NCBI RefSeq assembly: GCF_001417735.1
Contig: NZ_BBUZ01000050.1
Location: 1 to 64,000 of the forward strand
Reading direction: 5' to 3'
Length of the DNA stretch: 64,000 nt
From: Streptomyces sp. NBRC 110028
Lineage (GTDB): Bacteria > Actinomycetota > Actinomycetes > Streptomycetales > Streptomycetaceae
In this document: piece by piece, positions 279 to 25,305 of the stretch
Numbering within the stretch: the stretch's first letter is position 1
How the letters are laid out: every line of letters starts with the position of its first letter
Translations under genes and position numbers: made by a program
The notes under the pieces: generated by a model
The model's input: only the letters and a program-made list of their open reading frames with translations
Told to the model about the DNA's origin: nothing
Databases searched by the model: none

Positions 279-707
279 CTATCCCTGATAGTGCCAAGGA
301 TTAACCAGTTCGACGCCGGTACGGGTCAGGTGTTTGGTGTTGCGGCTTGCGAGGGTCCAGCGGTTGGCCAGGGCTGTGGCGGCGATGAGAGCGTCGAGTG
401 GGTCGATGGGTTGGCCGGTGGACTTCAGGGCCTTGTGGAGGGTGAGGTAGGCGGTCGCCTCTGGTTCGCCGATTGCGGCGATGCGGTGGCGGTACTCGCT
501 CCGTAGCGTGGTCAGGGCTTGGCGGTAGCGGGCTTGGCGGAGTGGATCGGAGGTAGCGGCGACGCCGGCTTCGATCTCGGCCACAGTGACCACGCTGAGG
601 TAGAGGTTCGGGCTGGGCGTGGAGTGGAACCATGCGATGACGTGGGGATCTGGCTTGGGGCGGGTGGTGAGCTCAGCGACGACGTTGGTGTCGAGCAGGT
701 AGATCAT
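279..707 (-). CDS. PIN-domain ribonuclease toxin (VapC/FitB-like)
   Basis: A 142-residue PIN protein, the usual length for VapC toxins, predicted to be a Mg2+-dependent RNase that halts translation. The acidic site is visible: Asp in LLDTNVVAEL near residue 6, Glu in VAEIEAGV near residue 45, and Asp in DALIAATAL near residue 105. Its ATG overlaps the stop of the upstream antitoxin gene by four bases (ATGA, 704-707), the translational coupling typical of such pairs. The FitB-like pattern (IDPLDALIAA) suggests the chromosomal PIN subfamily found with diverse antitoxins. The gene appears intact. Confidence 0.85.
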   Translation of the reverse strand: MIYLLDTNVVAELTTRPKPDPHVIAWFHSTPSPNLYLSVVTVAEIEAGVAATSDPLRQARYRQALTTLRSEYRHRIAAIGEPEATAYLTLHKALKSTGQPIDPLDALIAATALANRWTLASRNTKHLTRTGVELVNPWHYQG

Positions 708-979
708 TCGGGTCCCTGAGCCTCGTCGTACGATCGAGTGCCGAACTCAAGATCTTCGAAGGGGGCCTGCTGGAGGAAGTCTACAAAGCCGTCGTGTGCG
801 GTCGTGGCCCAGCGGGTGAGCATGGCGGGGAGGTCGTCAAGATCAGTCACGGCCAGTTCGGCGTCGAAGTGGGCGACCTGGTCGGCGGGGAGAGCCTCTC
901 TGATGTCACGGATGGTACGAAGTGGATGGGCTGGCTCGGAGGAAGAAGGTCCCACGGGATGGTCATGTGCTGTGCTCAT
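704..979 (-). CDS. Antitoxin partner of the PIN toxin (DUF6247-like)
   Basis: A 91-residue acidic protein beginning MSTAHDHP; this start is preferred over the longer frame because GGGAGG lies six bases upstream. The core (IREALPADQVAHFDAEL, then DLDDLPAMLTRW) resembles small actinobacterial DUF6247-type proteins that accompany PIN toxins; no classical ribbon-helix-helix or AbrB motif is obvious. By position it should bind and neutralise the toxin and perhaps repress the pair. The identification rests mainly on context (upstream order, ATGA overlap). Confidence 0.65.
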   Translation of the reverse strand: MSTAHDHPVGPSSSEPAHPLRTIRDIREALPADQVAHFDAELAVTDLDDLPAMLTRWATTAHDGFVDFLQQAPFEDLEFGTRSYDEAQGPE

Positions 980-1154: not shown

Positions 1155-1199
1155 CTGGGGGTCAAGGGGTCGCAGGTTCAAATCCTGTCGTCCCGACCA
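1155..1199 (+). other. 3' half of tRNA-Pro(GGG); probable attachment-site scar
   Basis: From the anticodon loop CTGGGGG (GGG at positions 34-36) the sequence runs through the 3' anticodon strand TCAAG, a T-arm (GCAGG-TTCAAAT-CCTGT), the acceptor strand CGTCCCG, discriminator A and encoded CCA. No 5' half lies upstream, so this is not a functional tRNA. Integrative elements of actinomycetes use tRNA 3' ends as att sites and leave exactly such a duplicated half at one boundary. A tRNA-type terminator follows at once. No integrase gene lies nearby. Confidence 0.7.
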
Positions 1200-1217
1200 G
1201 CGTTTTCGCAGGTCGGA

Positions 1218-1250
1218 GGCCGTTTCCGCGGGTAGCGGAAGCGGCCTTTG
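1218..1250 (+). terminator. Rho-independent terminator behind the tRNA fragment
   Basis: GGCCGTTTCCGC and GCGGAAGCGGCC form a 12-bp stem with one G-T pair around a short loop, followed by TTTG. It lies just downstream of the tRNA 3' end, as normal for a tRNA gene, so it was probably carried with the attachment site. Confidence 0.65.
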
Positions 1251-1474
1251 TCGTGTCTGGGCTGGGAGCGATGGGGAGCCCTCTGGGAGCCCTCGTGCTC
1301 CCAACTCCCCGCGGTGTCAATCCCGCCCGGTTTGTCCGTCACCCGATCCGGTCGACTTGCCGCGCGGTATGGCGCCACTGTGCACCGTCGTCAACCATAG
1401 GCCGCCAAGGTCACCCCGCCGGTATGGATGTCCTCGCCATCGAGAGGCATAAGAACCCCTTGATGGCTCCCGGA

Positions 1475-2672
1475 CCTGTGCCGTTCAGAAACGCGTCACT
1501 GCTGGTCATGCCGCGTATCTGTACTCATTGATCAGGCCACCGAGGATACGGGTCTGGAGTAGCCGTCCTGGGGTTTTCAAGTCGCTCAGCGGCGCAGTGT
1601 GGTGATCGGCGAGTGGAGGTAGTTGCTCTCGGGCCTGATGCGGTCGATGCCCGTTGTAGTGTCCGGCGTAGGTGCTGAGAACGTGGAGAGCGTGGCGCTC
1701 GCTCCAGAGCAACAGGTGGTCGAGGGCCTCGCGCCGTAGCGTCCCGATAACTCTCTCGCAGTGTGCGTTCATCCGCGGGGACTGCGGGGCGGTCTTGAGG
1801 GTTTTGATGCCCTCAGCTTCGAAAACCGCGTCGAAGGAGTCGGTGTACTTGTCGTCCCGGTCGCGGATCACAAAGCACAACGACTCCAGGCGCACGCCCA
1901 CTTCAAGCGCAAGGTTGCGGGCCTGTTGGGTCGTCCACTGTGCGGTCGGATGCGCGGTTACCCCGGCGATGTGGAGGCGGCGTGTGCCGTGCTCGAGGAA
2001 GATCAGTGCATAGACGCGGCGAAGATCCACCAGATCGATGTGCAGGAAGTCGCAGGAGATGATGGCCTCGGCCTGGGATGTCAGGAACTCACGCCATGTA
2101 GGCCCGCCGCGGCGGGGAGCCGGGTCGACCCCGGCTGCCGTCAAGATCTTCCATACCGTAGACGCGCCGATCCCGTGGCCCAGCCGGGCGAGCTCTCCCT
2201 GGATCCTGCGGCAGCCCCAGCGCGGGTTCTCCCGCGCCAGCCGCAGCACCAACTCCTTCACAACTTCCGCCGTCGCTGGCCGGCCCGGCTTGCTCCGGCA
2301 CGCACTGTAGTCCCATCTGCGTGCAACGAGACGCCGATGCCAGCCGAGCAAGGTCCCCGGTGTCACGCGGAACACCTGCGCCCAGCGACGCCGAGGTATC
2401 AGCGAAGACAACGCCGCGAACCACAACCGGTCCGCCCACTCATACCGCACCGGACTCGAAAGTTGCCTGCGCAGCACCGCGTTCTCATGCCGGAGCACGA
2501 GCAACACAGCGTCTGTGGCCTCCGCCGACGCAGCAGCACCGCTGGGACCGACAGAAGCTTCCGCGTGACCTGATACACCAATGAGACGATCACCTGCACA
2601 TGGTCCCAACGAGCCCGCAGATCCCGCCAGACCGCCTACGACCTGCAGCGACGCATTTCTGAAAGGCACAGG
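1475..2672 (-). mobile_element. IS-A copy 1, rve-type insertion sequence, 1.2 kb
   Basis: Bounded by imperfect inverted repeats: CCTGTGCCGTTCAGAAACGC at 1475 and the complement of GCATTTCTGAAAGGCACAGG ending at 2672 (about 28 bp with a few mismatches, extending to CACTGC/CGCTGC). It contains one transposase gene on the minus strand. No target duplication is apparent. It sits inside an IS5-family gene whose tail continues at 2673. The same terminal repeat recurs at 5856, 15418, 28632/29626 and 54780/55637. Confidence 0.8.
1506..2593 (-). CDS. IS-A transposase (rve/DDE integrase core), frameshifted near N-terminus
   Basis: DDE recombinase that would cut and join the IS-A ends. The catalytic triad is present: Asp in ISCDFLHIDL, Asp in VIRDRDDKY, Glu in AHCERVIGTLRRE; the protein ends GGLINEYRYAA like its relatives. 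The expected start (GTG at 2593, VIVSLVYQVTRKLL) lies in another frame from the rest; the shift is at about 2520-2530, between LLRR and EATDAVLLVLRHENAVLRRQL. An upstream start in the open frame would give only an unrelated leader. It is therefore probably inactive unless the indel is a sequence error. Confidence 0.75.
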
Positions 2673-2847
2673 TGAACTCACCCTCACCGAGCGGACCGAG
2701 AACCGGGCCCTGTCCGCGGCCCGGGCACCTGTCGAACGAGGCATGGCACGGCTGAAGTCCTGGCAGATCTTCCGCAGATCCCGCATCAGCCCCAACCGCA
2801 TGAGCGTCATCACCAAGGCCGTCCTCACCCTGGAGAAGCACCGCTGA
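2673..2847 (+). pseudogene. C-terminal fragment of an IS5-family transposase
   Basis: The frame reading ELTLTERTENRALSAARAPV then ERGMARLKSWQIFRRSR and ending AVLTLEKHR-stop is the characteristic tail of IS5-family (DDE_Tnp_4) transposases, where APVERG-ARLK-W follows the catalytic region. It starts exactly at the IS-A terminus, so IS-A inserted in the IS5 gene and the upstream portion was later lost. Confidence 0.7.
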
Positions 2848-2862
2848 AAACGCTCAGTAACC

Positions 2863-4308
2863 TCAGAGCAAGGCGGCCTGACGGTCCGTTTCCTGCGCGA
2901 CATACCGTAGTGCCTGGTCCAGGTCCTCGGGCCCTACCAAAGGGTTGAGCAGTACGGTGCGCAAAACGGTGTTCCCGCCCACCCGGGTCGTGGACAGCAG
3001 AAGCCGTCCGGACTGGAACAGAGCCTGCTGCACCCGCTCGTGCAAGAGATCCACGTCCTTCTGTGAGAGACCTGGCCGAACCAGCCTGAAACACACGACG
3101 GTGGTGTCCGGCTCCGTGACCAGTTCCACTCCCGGGGTCTTGTGGATGCGTTCGGCAAAGGACATGGTGCGCTCACGCACCCGGCGCAGGATCTGGGTGT
3201 ATCCGGCAGTCCCGAGATGCCGGATGCACATCCACAGCTTCAGCGCTTCGAGCCTGCGCGAGCCTTCCAGCCGCCGGTCGCCGGCGTCTTGATCCGAGTT
3301 TCGCTTGAGCGCGTACTCGGCATGGAAACGCAGCCTGTCGGATTCGTGATCATTTCGCAGGAGCAGGGAACCCACCGCATACGACGCGTACAGCGTTTTG
3401 TGCGGGTCCCAGGAAACGGAATCTGCCTCGCACCAGTCAGACGTGGCAGCCGGATCGGTCAGTGTCAGCATGCCTCCCAGGGCCGCGTCCATGTGACACC
3501 ACGCCCCGTGGCTGCGGGCCGAGGCCAAGAACTCAGGCAGTGGCTCCACCACACCGGCGTTGGCGGTACCCGCAGTGCAGACAAACAGGAACGGATGCAG
3601 ACCCTCACCCGCCAGTTCGTCGGCCAGCCTGCGGACCGCGCCGTCACGCAGCCGGCCGGTCACATCCGTAGGCACCCGGACAATCGTGTCCTGGCCCAGT
3701 CCGGCCAGCGAAGCGGCCTTGTCCAGCGAAACATGAACCTGGTCACTGGCCACGATACGCAGCGCCGTCAGATCCCGGCCCTCTTGCACGGCCCGCTCGC
3801 GAGCCAGGTGCAACGCAAGGAGGTTGCTCATGGTGCCGCCAGAGGTGAGCATGCCGCCCGCACCAGCCCCATACCCGACACGGGCACAGAGCCAGTCCAC
3901 GACCTGCCTTTCCAGCGTGGCAGCAAGCGGTGCTTCCTCGTAGATGAAAGCGCACTGATTCGTGGCACCGATCAACAGGTCCGCAAGCACAGATATACCG
4001 AGCGGCGGCGGGACCATATGCGCCATCGAAAGAGGATGCCGCGTATCTACGGCATGCCGCACGAACGTGTCACGCACCTCAGCGAGAACATCATCCAACT
4101 TTGCACCCTCATCGCCTGACAGTGCCAGGCTGACCGTCCGGGGCGGCGTGAACGGATTTCTCCGCGGCACCTCAGCCTCAACGGACTCCAGCAGTGTGCG
4201 TGACGCCGCCTGGACATCTGGCAGGCCGAAGAGGCCCAAAAGCCAGGGAGCCAGGGGTTCTTCCGGGGGCGCGGTCAGTGCTCCAGCAGCTTCTTGGGTT
4301 ACAGACAT
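2863..4308 (-). CDS. Group II pyridoxal-phosphate amino acid decarboxylase
   Basis: A 481-residue cytosolic PLP enzyme of the glutamate/diaminobutyrate/aromatic amino acid decarboxylase fold. HMDAALGG holds the Asp that pairs with the PLP pyridine nitrogen, and SWDPHKTL the Schiff-base Lys (DPHK); LTSGGTMSNLLAL is the family substrate/cofactor loop. The usual aromatic residue after HK is Thr here, so the substrate cannot be assigned. The start MSVTQEAAG is chosen because GGAGAATC lies directly upstream, shortening the longest frame by 24 codons. It stands alone between IS5 and ISAs1 debris; with the P450 at 6958 it may be a survivor of a lost biosynthetic cluster. Confidence 0.85.
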   Translation of the reverse strand: MSVTQEAAGALTAPPEEPLAPWLLGLFGLPDVQAASRTLLESVEAEVPRRNPFTPPRTVSLALSGDEGAKLDDVLAEVRDTFVRHAVDTRHPLSMAHMVPPPLGISVLADLLIGATNQCAFIYEEAPLAATLERQVVDWLCARVGYGAGAGGMLTSGGTMSNLLALHLARERAVQEGRDLTALRIVASDQVHVSLDKAASLAGLGQDTIVRVPTDVTGRLRDGAVRRLADELAGEGLHPFLFVCTAGTANAGVVEPLPEFLASARSHGAWCHMDAALGGMLTLTDPAATSDWCEADSVSWDPHKTLYASYAVGSLLLRNDHESDRLRFHAEYALKRNSDQDAGDRRLEGSRRLEALKLWMCIRHLGTAGYTQILRRVRERTMSFAERIHKTPGVELVTEPDTTVVCFRLVRPGLSQKDVDLLHERVQQALFQSGRLLLSTTRVGGNTVLRTVLLNPLVGPEDLDQALRYVAQETDRQAALL

Positions 4309-4420
4309 GATTCTCCGTGTGGCCGTGTTTTCTGCACACATGGTCATGGTGCCTTTTCCGGCTGCTTGACCATCCGTCAATGTATCAGGGTCATTGCGTG
4401 TAGTCGATCTGTCTGGTTGA

Positions 4421-23877: not shown

Positions 23878-25305
23878 TCAGACCAGCAACGTCAGGATCA
23901 GGCCGTACATGACCGCGGCGGGGATGAGCACCTGCCAGCCGACCGAGAGCAGTGTCCTGAGGCGGGTGGCTTCGGCGAAGCCGAGGGCGGACATCATGTT
24001 GGGGTTGGGGAAAGGGCCGTAGGTGTCGGCTTTGGAACCCCACAGATAGGTCACAGCCCACGTGGCGGGGGTGAGCCCGATGCTGGTGCCGAGTGGACCG
24101 AACACGTTGTTCAGCAGCACCACGTGTGCCGCGGTAGCGCCCGGGACGCCCAGCCAACCGAGCAGCGCCACCGCTACGGCGAACGACAGCACCGGCAGGT
24201 CGTGCAGCTGCGGGCCGAACGAGTCCAGGAGGACGTCGTACGGCTTGAGTTCGTTGACCATCTGGAAGAACGCGGCGAGTATCCAGAACAGCAGGAAGGT
24301 CTCCACCATCCGTCCCGCGCCGCGGCATAGCGCGTCGATGGTGTCCCTCACGGACAACCCGCCGGCCATGGCGGTGACCACGGCCATCACTGGGAGGGCC
24401 AACAGGGGGAAGGCGGTGCCTCCCTTGCTCATCGTGGCGTAGGCCACCGAGACCACGAGGACTACCGAGAATGCCCAGGTGGCGCGCACGGTACGGGGCC
24501 CAGGGGCTTGCTCGTCCGCTTCGGTCAGGTCGTCTTCGTAGAAGTCGTCGCCGCCAGGTGCCGAGCGGCGCTGCACACGCGGCACGACGACTATGGAGAG
24601 CAGCAGGGACAGCAGGGCGAGGGGACCCGCGGCGACGAGGACATAGGTCCCGTACTCCACTCCGGAGGCGTCCAGGATTGCGATGTTCGCCCCGGCGAAG
24701 GGGGCCAGCGCCAGCCCCGCACAGCCGCCCAGGAACATCATGCTGGCCGTCGCTGAGCGTGTGAAACCGGCACGTGCTGTGATGGGGATGAGGATCGGTG
24801 CGGCGATCGCCAGCGCGCCGGCGAGCGTGCCGAGCGCGAAGACCAGTACCAGGCAGGACATCATCACGCCGAGTTGGATCGCCAGTTGGCTGTCCCGCCG
24901 TACGACGCGCATGACGCCGCGGACCAGGAGGTCCGCGGCTCCTGTCTGCCGCAGTACCTCCCCCAGGCCGGAGCCCAGCAGACAGATGACACCGATGACG
25001 GTCACCGTGTCACCGAGCGCGCTGCCGAGGAGGATGCCGACGTCCGTGGGCGGACGCTGCGCGAGGACGACCCCGGCCAGCAGGGAGATCACGGTGGCCA
25101 GCAGGAGATTCATGCCGCACAGCGAGAGCACCGCGTAAAGGACGATCGGGAGCAGACCCCAGATCGTCGGGGTGTGCACCAGGAAGCCGAGCACGAGCGC
25201 GGCGATCAGGCCGGCTCCCGCGATGGCGTACTGCGTGACGGTCAGCAGCGAGCGTCCGCGCCGGGGCGCGGCCGCGGCAGCGAGGGGGTTCTTGGTCATC
25301 GACAT
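23878..25305 (-). CDS. Multi-pass permease (GntP/NhaC-like ion-transporter superfamily)
   Basis: A 475-residue membrane protein with about 12 hydrophobic helices in two halves separated by an acidic cytoplasmic loop near residue 240 (DDFYEDDLTEADEQ). Paired re-entrant-like segments (FLGGCAGLALAPFAGANIAI, WLGVPGATAAHVVL) are typical of ion-coupled carboxylate transporters. It overlaps the PLP gene upstream by 10 bp and precedes D-aminoacylase by 50 bp, so the natural guess is uptake of an acylated or free D-amino acid. The substrate cannot be read from the sequence. Confidence 0.75.
   Translation of the reverse strand: MSMTKNPLAAAAAPRRGRSLLTVTQYAIAGAGLIAALVLGFLVHTPTIWGLLPIVLYAVLSLCGMNLLLATVISLLAGVVLAQRPPTDVGILLGSALGDTVTVIGVICLLGSGLGEVLRQTGAADLLVRGVMRVVRRDSQLAIQLGVMMSCLVLVFALGTLAGALAIAAPILIPITARAGFTRSATASMMFLGGCAGLALAPFAGANIAILDASGVEYGTYVLVAAGPLALLSLLLSIVVVPRVQRRSAPGGDDFYEDDLTEADEQAPGPRTVRATWAFSVVLVVSVAYATMSKGGTAFPLLALPVMAVVTAMAGGLSVRDTIDALCRGAGRMVETFLLFWILAAFFQMVNELKPYDVLLDSFGPQLHDLPVLSFAVAVALLGWLGVPGATAAHVVLLNNVFGPLGTSIGLTPATWAVTYLWGSKADTYGPFPNPNMMSALGFAEATRLRTLLSVGWQVLIPAAVMYGLILTLLV

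Follow-up and report, generated by a model that had tools for sequence, protein, structure and literature searches.

A half tRNA-Pro(GGG) gene in Streptomyces sp. NBRC 110028 as a probable attachment-site copy in a tandem array of integrated elements that carry diverse toxin-antitoxin units

The 3' half of a tRNA-Pro(GGG) gene that is located near the start of contig C50 of Streptomyces sp. NBRC 110028 appears to be an attachment-site copy left by the insertion of an element, by a tyrosine integrase, into the 3' half of the tRNA-Pro(GGG) gene, with repeated insertion giving rise to a tandem array; we put the probability of this reading at about 0.9. The window, that is, the whole stretch of DNA that was analysed, spans 64,000 nt (C50:1-64000) of a contig of 65,092 bases, in a genome of 8.92 Mb assembled into 96 contigs. 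Around the half, the window contains the following features:

279-707, minus strand: gene for a VapC-like PIN-domain toxin of 142 aa (PF01850, E 6.2e-15, above the cut-off)
704-979, minus strand: gene for an antitoxin-like protein of 91 aa, overlapping vapC by 4 nt (DUF6247, E 9e-4, below the cut-off)
1050-1154, no strand assigned: putative right end of the vapBC-carrying element, unlike the block at five other halves (from alignment, with inferred borders)
1155-1199, plus strand: tRNA-Pro(GGG) from the anticodon loop through CCA (3' half), the attachment-site core (elsewhere in the genome, one intact copy and a further six halves)
1200-1472, plus strand: arm block with candidate integrase arm sites (seven genomic places, each beside a tRNA or a half)
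1214-1250, plus strand: 16-bp hairpin, similar to a tRNA terminator, with a weak T-run (fold compared with shuffles)
1264, 1274, 1285, 1297 and 1466: five GGGAGC/GCTCCC hexamers in the arm block
1477-2903, minus strand: insertion sequence after the arm, with an end repeat (1477-1510) and an rve_3 transposase gene (1506-2903; PF13683, E 1.1e-12)

On the plus strand, the half runs from the anticodon loop (CTGGGGG, with the anticodon GGG) through the encoded CCA. The 5' half is absent and ARAGORN calls no tRNA in the whole window, which confirms what the first-pass annotation had noticed. Of the terminator named there, the strong hairpin stands (-30.5 kcal/mol, z -6.95 against shuffles), but the T-run is poor, with only TTTGTC after the hairpin, and the hairpin is not among the calls of a consensus terminator scan. 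Hairpins are also found 3' of intact tRNA-Pro genes in other genomes. A promoter scan of positions 900-1500 made no call. The same annotation had seen no integrase, and this holds for all of C50, which has no match to PF00589.

The 32-nt 3' end, searched with at most two mismatches, occurs eight times in the genome (a control pattern, not once). One occurrence is an intact gene (C29:212266, called by ARAGORN as tRNA-Pro ggg), and the other seven are halves without an ARAGORN call: C29:273873 (plus strand), C33:6863, C33:221558 and C33:234608 (minus), C50:1168 (plus; the half in the window), C66:6109 (minus) and C63:20268 (minus). Thus, the intact gene predicted from the window is present, and the 45-nt copy expected elsewhere recurs, as seven halves and not one. 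Only C29 and C33 carry more than one copy, and within each of them the strand is the same throughout. As in elements that integrate into tRNA genes, the core is identical to the tRNA 3' half and is repeated at the end of the element, and an intact tRNA is found at the other end on the same strand, within this genome for one of the seven halves (that on C29). Since the seven halves are spread over five contigs, they do not prove a single array in this genome. The 45-nt sequence itself is present in 133 of 150 genomes of the genus, this one included, often in two to four copies, and 28 of the 30 loci read across the genus are intact genes, as are all six in genomes G106 and G118. Given that most copies read are intact genes, the mark of a scar is the missing 5' half rather than the sequence alone.

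In nine relatives, a search with the 43-nt core, followed by reading of every copy, yielded eight intact genes, 28 halves and one degenerate copy, with one to five halves in each relative compared to seven in this genome. Seven relatives (G096, G212, G197, G392, G055, G416 and G069) have the intact gene on the same contig as halves. In these and on C29, the 23 halves on the strand of the intact gene are all 3' of it, 17-354 kb away; two halves on the other strand are located elsewhere (G212 541594 and G197 9252286). An intact copy immediately upstream of the half in another assembly, which the first-pass annotation had named as evidence against a scar, is not seen in the seven relatives, where the intact gene precedes the first half by 17-143 kb. 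The degenerate copy (G212 8924206), 472 kb from the intact gene, has no tRNA call and retains part of the anticodon stem, which means that truncated copies are not all clean scars. The intact genes of G096 and C29 have the same transketolase neighbours (80-83%). In G036, G090 and G137, the intact gene is flanked by orthologues of the C29 neighbours at lower identity, with no second copy listed nearby, and this is the unoccupied site. Genes behind the intact tRNA vary between relatives. The native downstream genes of G036, G090 and G137 were sought on the five contigs, with no match of at least 50% identity. Some intervals, 156 kb in G096 and 215 kb in C33, are long for single elements. The smallest intervals, in G069 (L163:7068-10843) and G416 (L164:7549-11100), have two halves 3.5-3.7 kb apart that enclose transposase-like genes, judged by eye, and one TA-like unit.

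Integrases found at the same site in relatives support the claim that the half is a scar of integration into a tRNA gene, as the intact gene or a half is followed directly on its 3' side by a gene for a member of one family. In G096, the half at 7497996 is followed in this way by an integrase frame of 513 codons (L089:17995-19533, that is, C6:7497995-7499533; PF00589, E 3.2e-23) that runs on the opposite strand. The frame crosses the terminator hairpin into the tRNA half, so that the attachment site would encode a tail at the C-terminus. A near-full-length relative of this integrase (64-75% over aa 18-504) is encoded behind the intact tRNA of G416, also on the opposite strand, as would be expected at the front of an integrated element. 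G197 (59.6% over 235 aa), G182, G212 and S. himastatinicus (L049) have integrase fragments in the same position. The genome of strain NBRC 110028 contains integrase fragments at C33:7287-7427 (83%) and C33:88080-88214 (87%) and PF00589 matches below the cut-off at C29:262855 and C33:140889; no complete integrase of the G096 family is found in the examined stretches of this genome or beside the half in the window. Weak integrase matches, which in part are the site itself, occur at the last G096 half, on the NBC_00073 plasmid and, over 16-20 aa, at halves of this genome. On the linear plasmid of Streptomyces sp. NBC_00073 (L108:5001-5070), a half with part of the terminator adjoins an annotated ISAs1 transposase; the weak match there is to the C-terminus of the integrase.

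Other recombinases are encoded beside the same core. A different tyrosine recombinase (320 aa, PF00589) is complete behind the intact tRNA-Pro of G096 (L088:2896-3855), and its start is also found 3' of halves in S. samsunensis (L046) and S. antioxidans (L051). Two similar genes that look by eye like those for membrane proteins follow this recombinase in G096. At the half of G135, a further integrase is recognised by similarity only (27.5% to the Giles integrase). In mycobacteriophage Giles, which we take to integrate at tRNA-Pro, the core at 25137-25179 is followed, about 105 nt apart and on the other strand, by the integrase gene gp29 (from 25285). As in G096, the integrase is encoded 3' of the core on the opposite strand, and the 43-nt core is 95% identical; in contrast, Giles is a phage, and its integrase is only 32% identical to that of G096 over 348 aa.

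The sequences upstream of the core fall into several types of element end. About 70-100 nt, ending with ...GCGGAGAGTTGCCGCGC before the core, are common to five of the seven halves (C33:221558, C33:234608, C33:6863, C66 and C63). Upstream of C29:273873 there is a second type that retains the last stretch of the common block, whereas the sequence upstream of the half in the window is of a third type. As an exact pattern, the end of the common block occurs at nine places in named genomes, all of them Streptomyces, namely S. coffeae, S. samsunensis (three), S. rugosispiralis, S. himastatinicus (two), S. endocoffeicus and S. antioxidans, a search from which records near this genome may have been left out. 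With at most two mismatches, it is present in 10 of 392 genomes of the genus, this one included. The species with this block presumably form the S. violaceusniger clade. In a second end class (L092:3084 and L185:1500), the upstream sequence ends with ...AGAATTGGCGC or a similar sequence, and a 196-aa gene without a Pfam match takes the place of a TA pair; in G096, a very long gene, by eye similar to WXG or polymorphic toxins, lies behind it. A fourth upstream type, with ...CTCAGCCTCGACGCAA or the like before the core, is found at G197 3744348, G096 7482907 and G416 8267051 (L181, L179 and L201), and no TA unit was found at these three halves.

Many element ends carry a toxin-antitoxin or similar unit next to the site. 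In the window, vapC and its partner are transcribed away from the half. The pair has the PIN-domain toxin expected of a type II vapBC unit; the partner has no match in NCBIfam, and its weak resemblance is to DUF6247, which we assume to have an antitoxin role. A two-gene TA or similar unit reading away from the half is present at 21 of 35 halves, and a recognised toxin domain at 13 of the 35. The 35 comprise the seven halves here (five with a unit, three of them recognised) and the 28 in the nine relatives (16 and 10, respectively), all read on the 5' side, with the degenerate G212 copy dropped. A unit is a tblastn match to any of 14 proteins from the first junctions, so that units of other kinds would be missed, and 'recognised' stands for a Pfam PIN or Gp49 domain over the cut-off in the protein itself or in one at least 84% identical. 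The tally includes G182, with a 50-aa remnant only, and G197 9252286, where the Gp49 gene matches in two pieces; it leaves out nine junctions of named genomes (9 of 9 with a unit), some of which are from the same genomes. Junctions gathered through the upstream-block pattern favour the unit-bearing class (12 of 14); among those gathered through the tRNA pattern, 2 of 11 have a unit (two of the 11 are also in the upstream-block set), as does one of the last three halves read. The 14 halves without a unit include C29:273873 and C33:6863. Among halves of the second upstream type, no unit was found at C29:273873, G096 7543084, G055 7438217, G389 20190 and G392 2120093; at two of the five there are long genes of other kinds, with no Pfam match for the protein tried. 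Besides the pair in the window, the units are of the following kinds:

PIN toxin with a weakly RHH-like partner: C33:221558 (the toxin frame has a stop)
PIN toxin with VapB: C33:234608, G197, G055, G416 and G389
Second vapBC: G096, G212, G197, G392, L046, L048 and L050
Gp49-like gene with an HTH partner: L047, L049, G212 and G197
DUF6247 gene with a small partner: C63, L044, G212, G069, G055 and G416
Overlapping C66-type pair: C66, L043, L045 and G069, with a remnant in G182

In G197, G055, G416 and G389, a remnant of the C66-type pair is located between the PIN/VapB unit and the half. The DUF6247 match of the fifth kind is below the cut-off at C63 (E 2e-5) and just over it in G069, and the small partner has no informative Pfam match; in the window, a DUF6247-like gene is paired with a PIN toxin. 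For the C66-type pair, a HEPN/nucleotidyltransferase assignment suggested by eye (R-x4-H) was rejected, as the sole Pfam match of the pair is a DUF6882 hit of the first gene at E 0.064; the first gene matches nothing in NCBIfam and only a weak unnamed PADLOC model, and the AlphaFold models (mean pLDDT 65 and 63) have no Foldseek match at E<=0.001. Of the seven PIN matches in the genome, three are within 1.2 kb of a half, a limit chosen after the data had been seen, compared to about 0.007 expected by position alone (7 x 8.4 kb / 8.92 Mb).

On the other side of the half, the arm block of about 270 nt recurs after the intact gene and after five other halves with 78-87% identity, and elsewhere in the genome the query matches only through the 34-nt end of the insertion sequence. 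C33:6863 retains only the first 81 nt of the block; lacking the arm block, this half was a candidate for the chromosomal end of the array, but the assignment was rejected, as a relative (88%) of the LysR gene located beyond it is found upstream of a half in G182. In 80 other genomes, no match among those listed (eight candidates scored in each) extends past position 91, beyond the terminator. In a search of 144 loci of relatives, many of which had been selected for having the core, there are 46 matches, and every one of them has the tRNA core upstream at a distance of at most 250 nt. The arm block is tied to the tRNA site. It follows five of the seven intact genes that head arrays (G212, G069, G392, G055 and G197, not G096 and G416) and therefore could be a native flank in this clade; the seven copies in one genome speak for element DNA. 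Three to eight GGGAGC/GCTCCC hexamers are found in the first 400 nt behind seven of the sites, and none behind C33:6863, against a contig background of 0.96 per kb. They may be arm sites of the integrase; arm-type sites beside phage cores are known from an earlier report (PMC3203893). The 34-nt end of the insertion sequence that follows the arm is also found at C33:49039, C33:135417, C33:205908, C66:4477 and C66:5652 (84-100%). Next to the junction, positions 2863-4380 encode a pyridoxal-dependent decarboxylase (PF00282, E 5.4e-50).

The halves could, in principle, have arisen without integration. It is very improbable that they are decayed paralogues of multiple tRNA-Pro(GGG) genes that lost their 5' parts by deletion with no mobile element involved. 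The abundance of mostly intact copies across the genus is compatible with such an origin, and the degenerate copy in G212 looks like a case of it, but in nearly all halves the tRNA identity begins at the same base of the anticodon loop (G392 2107123, one base later, is the exception), the upstream stretch common to five of the seven halves here is not tRNA sequence, and integrase genes adjoin the site. Copying of the half and arm around the genome by adjacent insertion sequences would account for the transposase-like genes that follow five of the seven halves at a distance of less than 2 kb, including that in the window (all assigned by eye, with Pfam for the latter only). Nevertheless, these proteins appear to be of more than one kind, also by eye, the 34-nt end occurs without a half as well, and the halves hold to one strand and to one side of the intact tRNA, which makes this origin even less probable than the decay of paralogues. 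Least credible of all is the retention of the half as a functional RNA, for example, as a tRNA-like decoy or as a substrate for the VapC nuclease encoded next to it. In other bacteria, tRNAs are cut by PIN toxins, many halves are adjoined by TA units, and the half together with the hairpin folds with z -6.05 against shuffles; however, most of this signal comes from the hairpin, site-specific recombination accounts for the conservation, and the 14 halves without a unit do not fit this role.

Under integration into the tRNA gene, the reading preferred here, a tyrosine integrase, perhaps of the family found in G096 and G416, would insert elements at the anticodon loop of tRNA-Pro(GGG). Each element would bring its own tRNA 3' half and terminator, so that the tRNA would be restored intact at the front and a half left at the back, and repeated insertion would line up halves 3' of the intact gene. 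Inner junctions are predicted to have the order TA unit, half, and arm or integrase. At G096 7497996, the order is TA unit, half, integrase, and the window has the same order except that the integrase is missing. Accordingly, one element would end with positions 1-1154, its vapBC adjoining the site, and the sequence from 1200 onwards would represent the front, or arm, of another one, the integrase of which would have been lost or displaced and the front of which would have taken an insertion sequence at about 1477. Because this is the order of an inner junction, the half probably separates two elements. Thus, the first-pass proposal of a half at one end of an island holds as to the integration scar, but probably not as to the outer end, and the whole window may lie inside the array although C50 has no second half.

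Tandem accretion as such is already known; the new part is the slot common to unrelated TA units beside one site. At a tRNA-Arg gene of Streptomyces, one to three AICEs with traB accrete (PMC9513070), and the arrays described here resemble these in having several elements per tRNA gene, direct repeats between them, decayed members and some TA cargo, but differ in the number of halves, seven in this genome. Membership among AICEs was rejected since FtsK-like TraB (PF01580), with 10 matches in the genome, has none on the contigs concerned (C29, C33, C50, C63 and C66). Tandem AICEs of Frankia and S. avermitilis are likewise inserted into tRNA 3' ends, but as two elements and in other tRNAs (PMC3218068). 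The closest parallel to the placement of the units is GI21/CGI48 of Shewanella putrefaciens, with an integrase at the left end and hipAB, which stabilises the island, by the right attachment site (PMC8978831); however, that is one hipAB in one island at another gene, compared to seven sequence-distinct units (two of them 36% alike) at one site here. In SXT, the single pair mosAT has been tested and guards the integrated element against loss (PMC2654960), and the TA pairs at the halves may do the same. No description of a TA slot or of tRNA-Pro arrays in Streptomyces was found in the titles and abstract beginnings of the open-licence literature.

A more far-reaching and doubtful possibility is that a dedicated slot by the attachment site, marked by the conserved upstream block, exchanges unrelated TA modules like cassettes, so that each new element would bring its own addiction module and the array would thus resist deletion between its direct repeats. 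Altogether, insertion into a single tRNA gene would explain how a group of Streptomyces can have variable DNA, in amounts of up to several hundred kilobases, attached to that gene. The junctions form a natural set in which the same attachment site is combined with different TA modules, so that the question whether such modules keep integrated elements in place becomes testable, by comparing or deleting the modules at otherwise like junctions.
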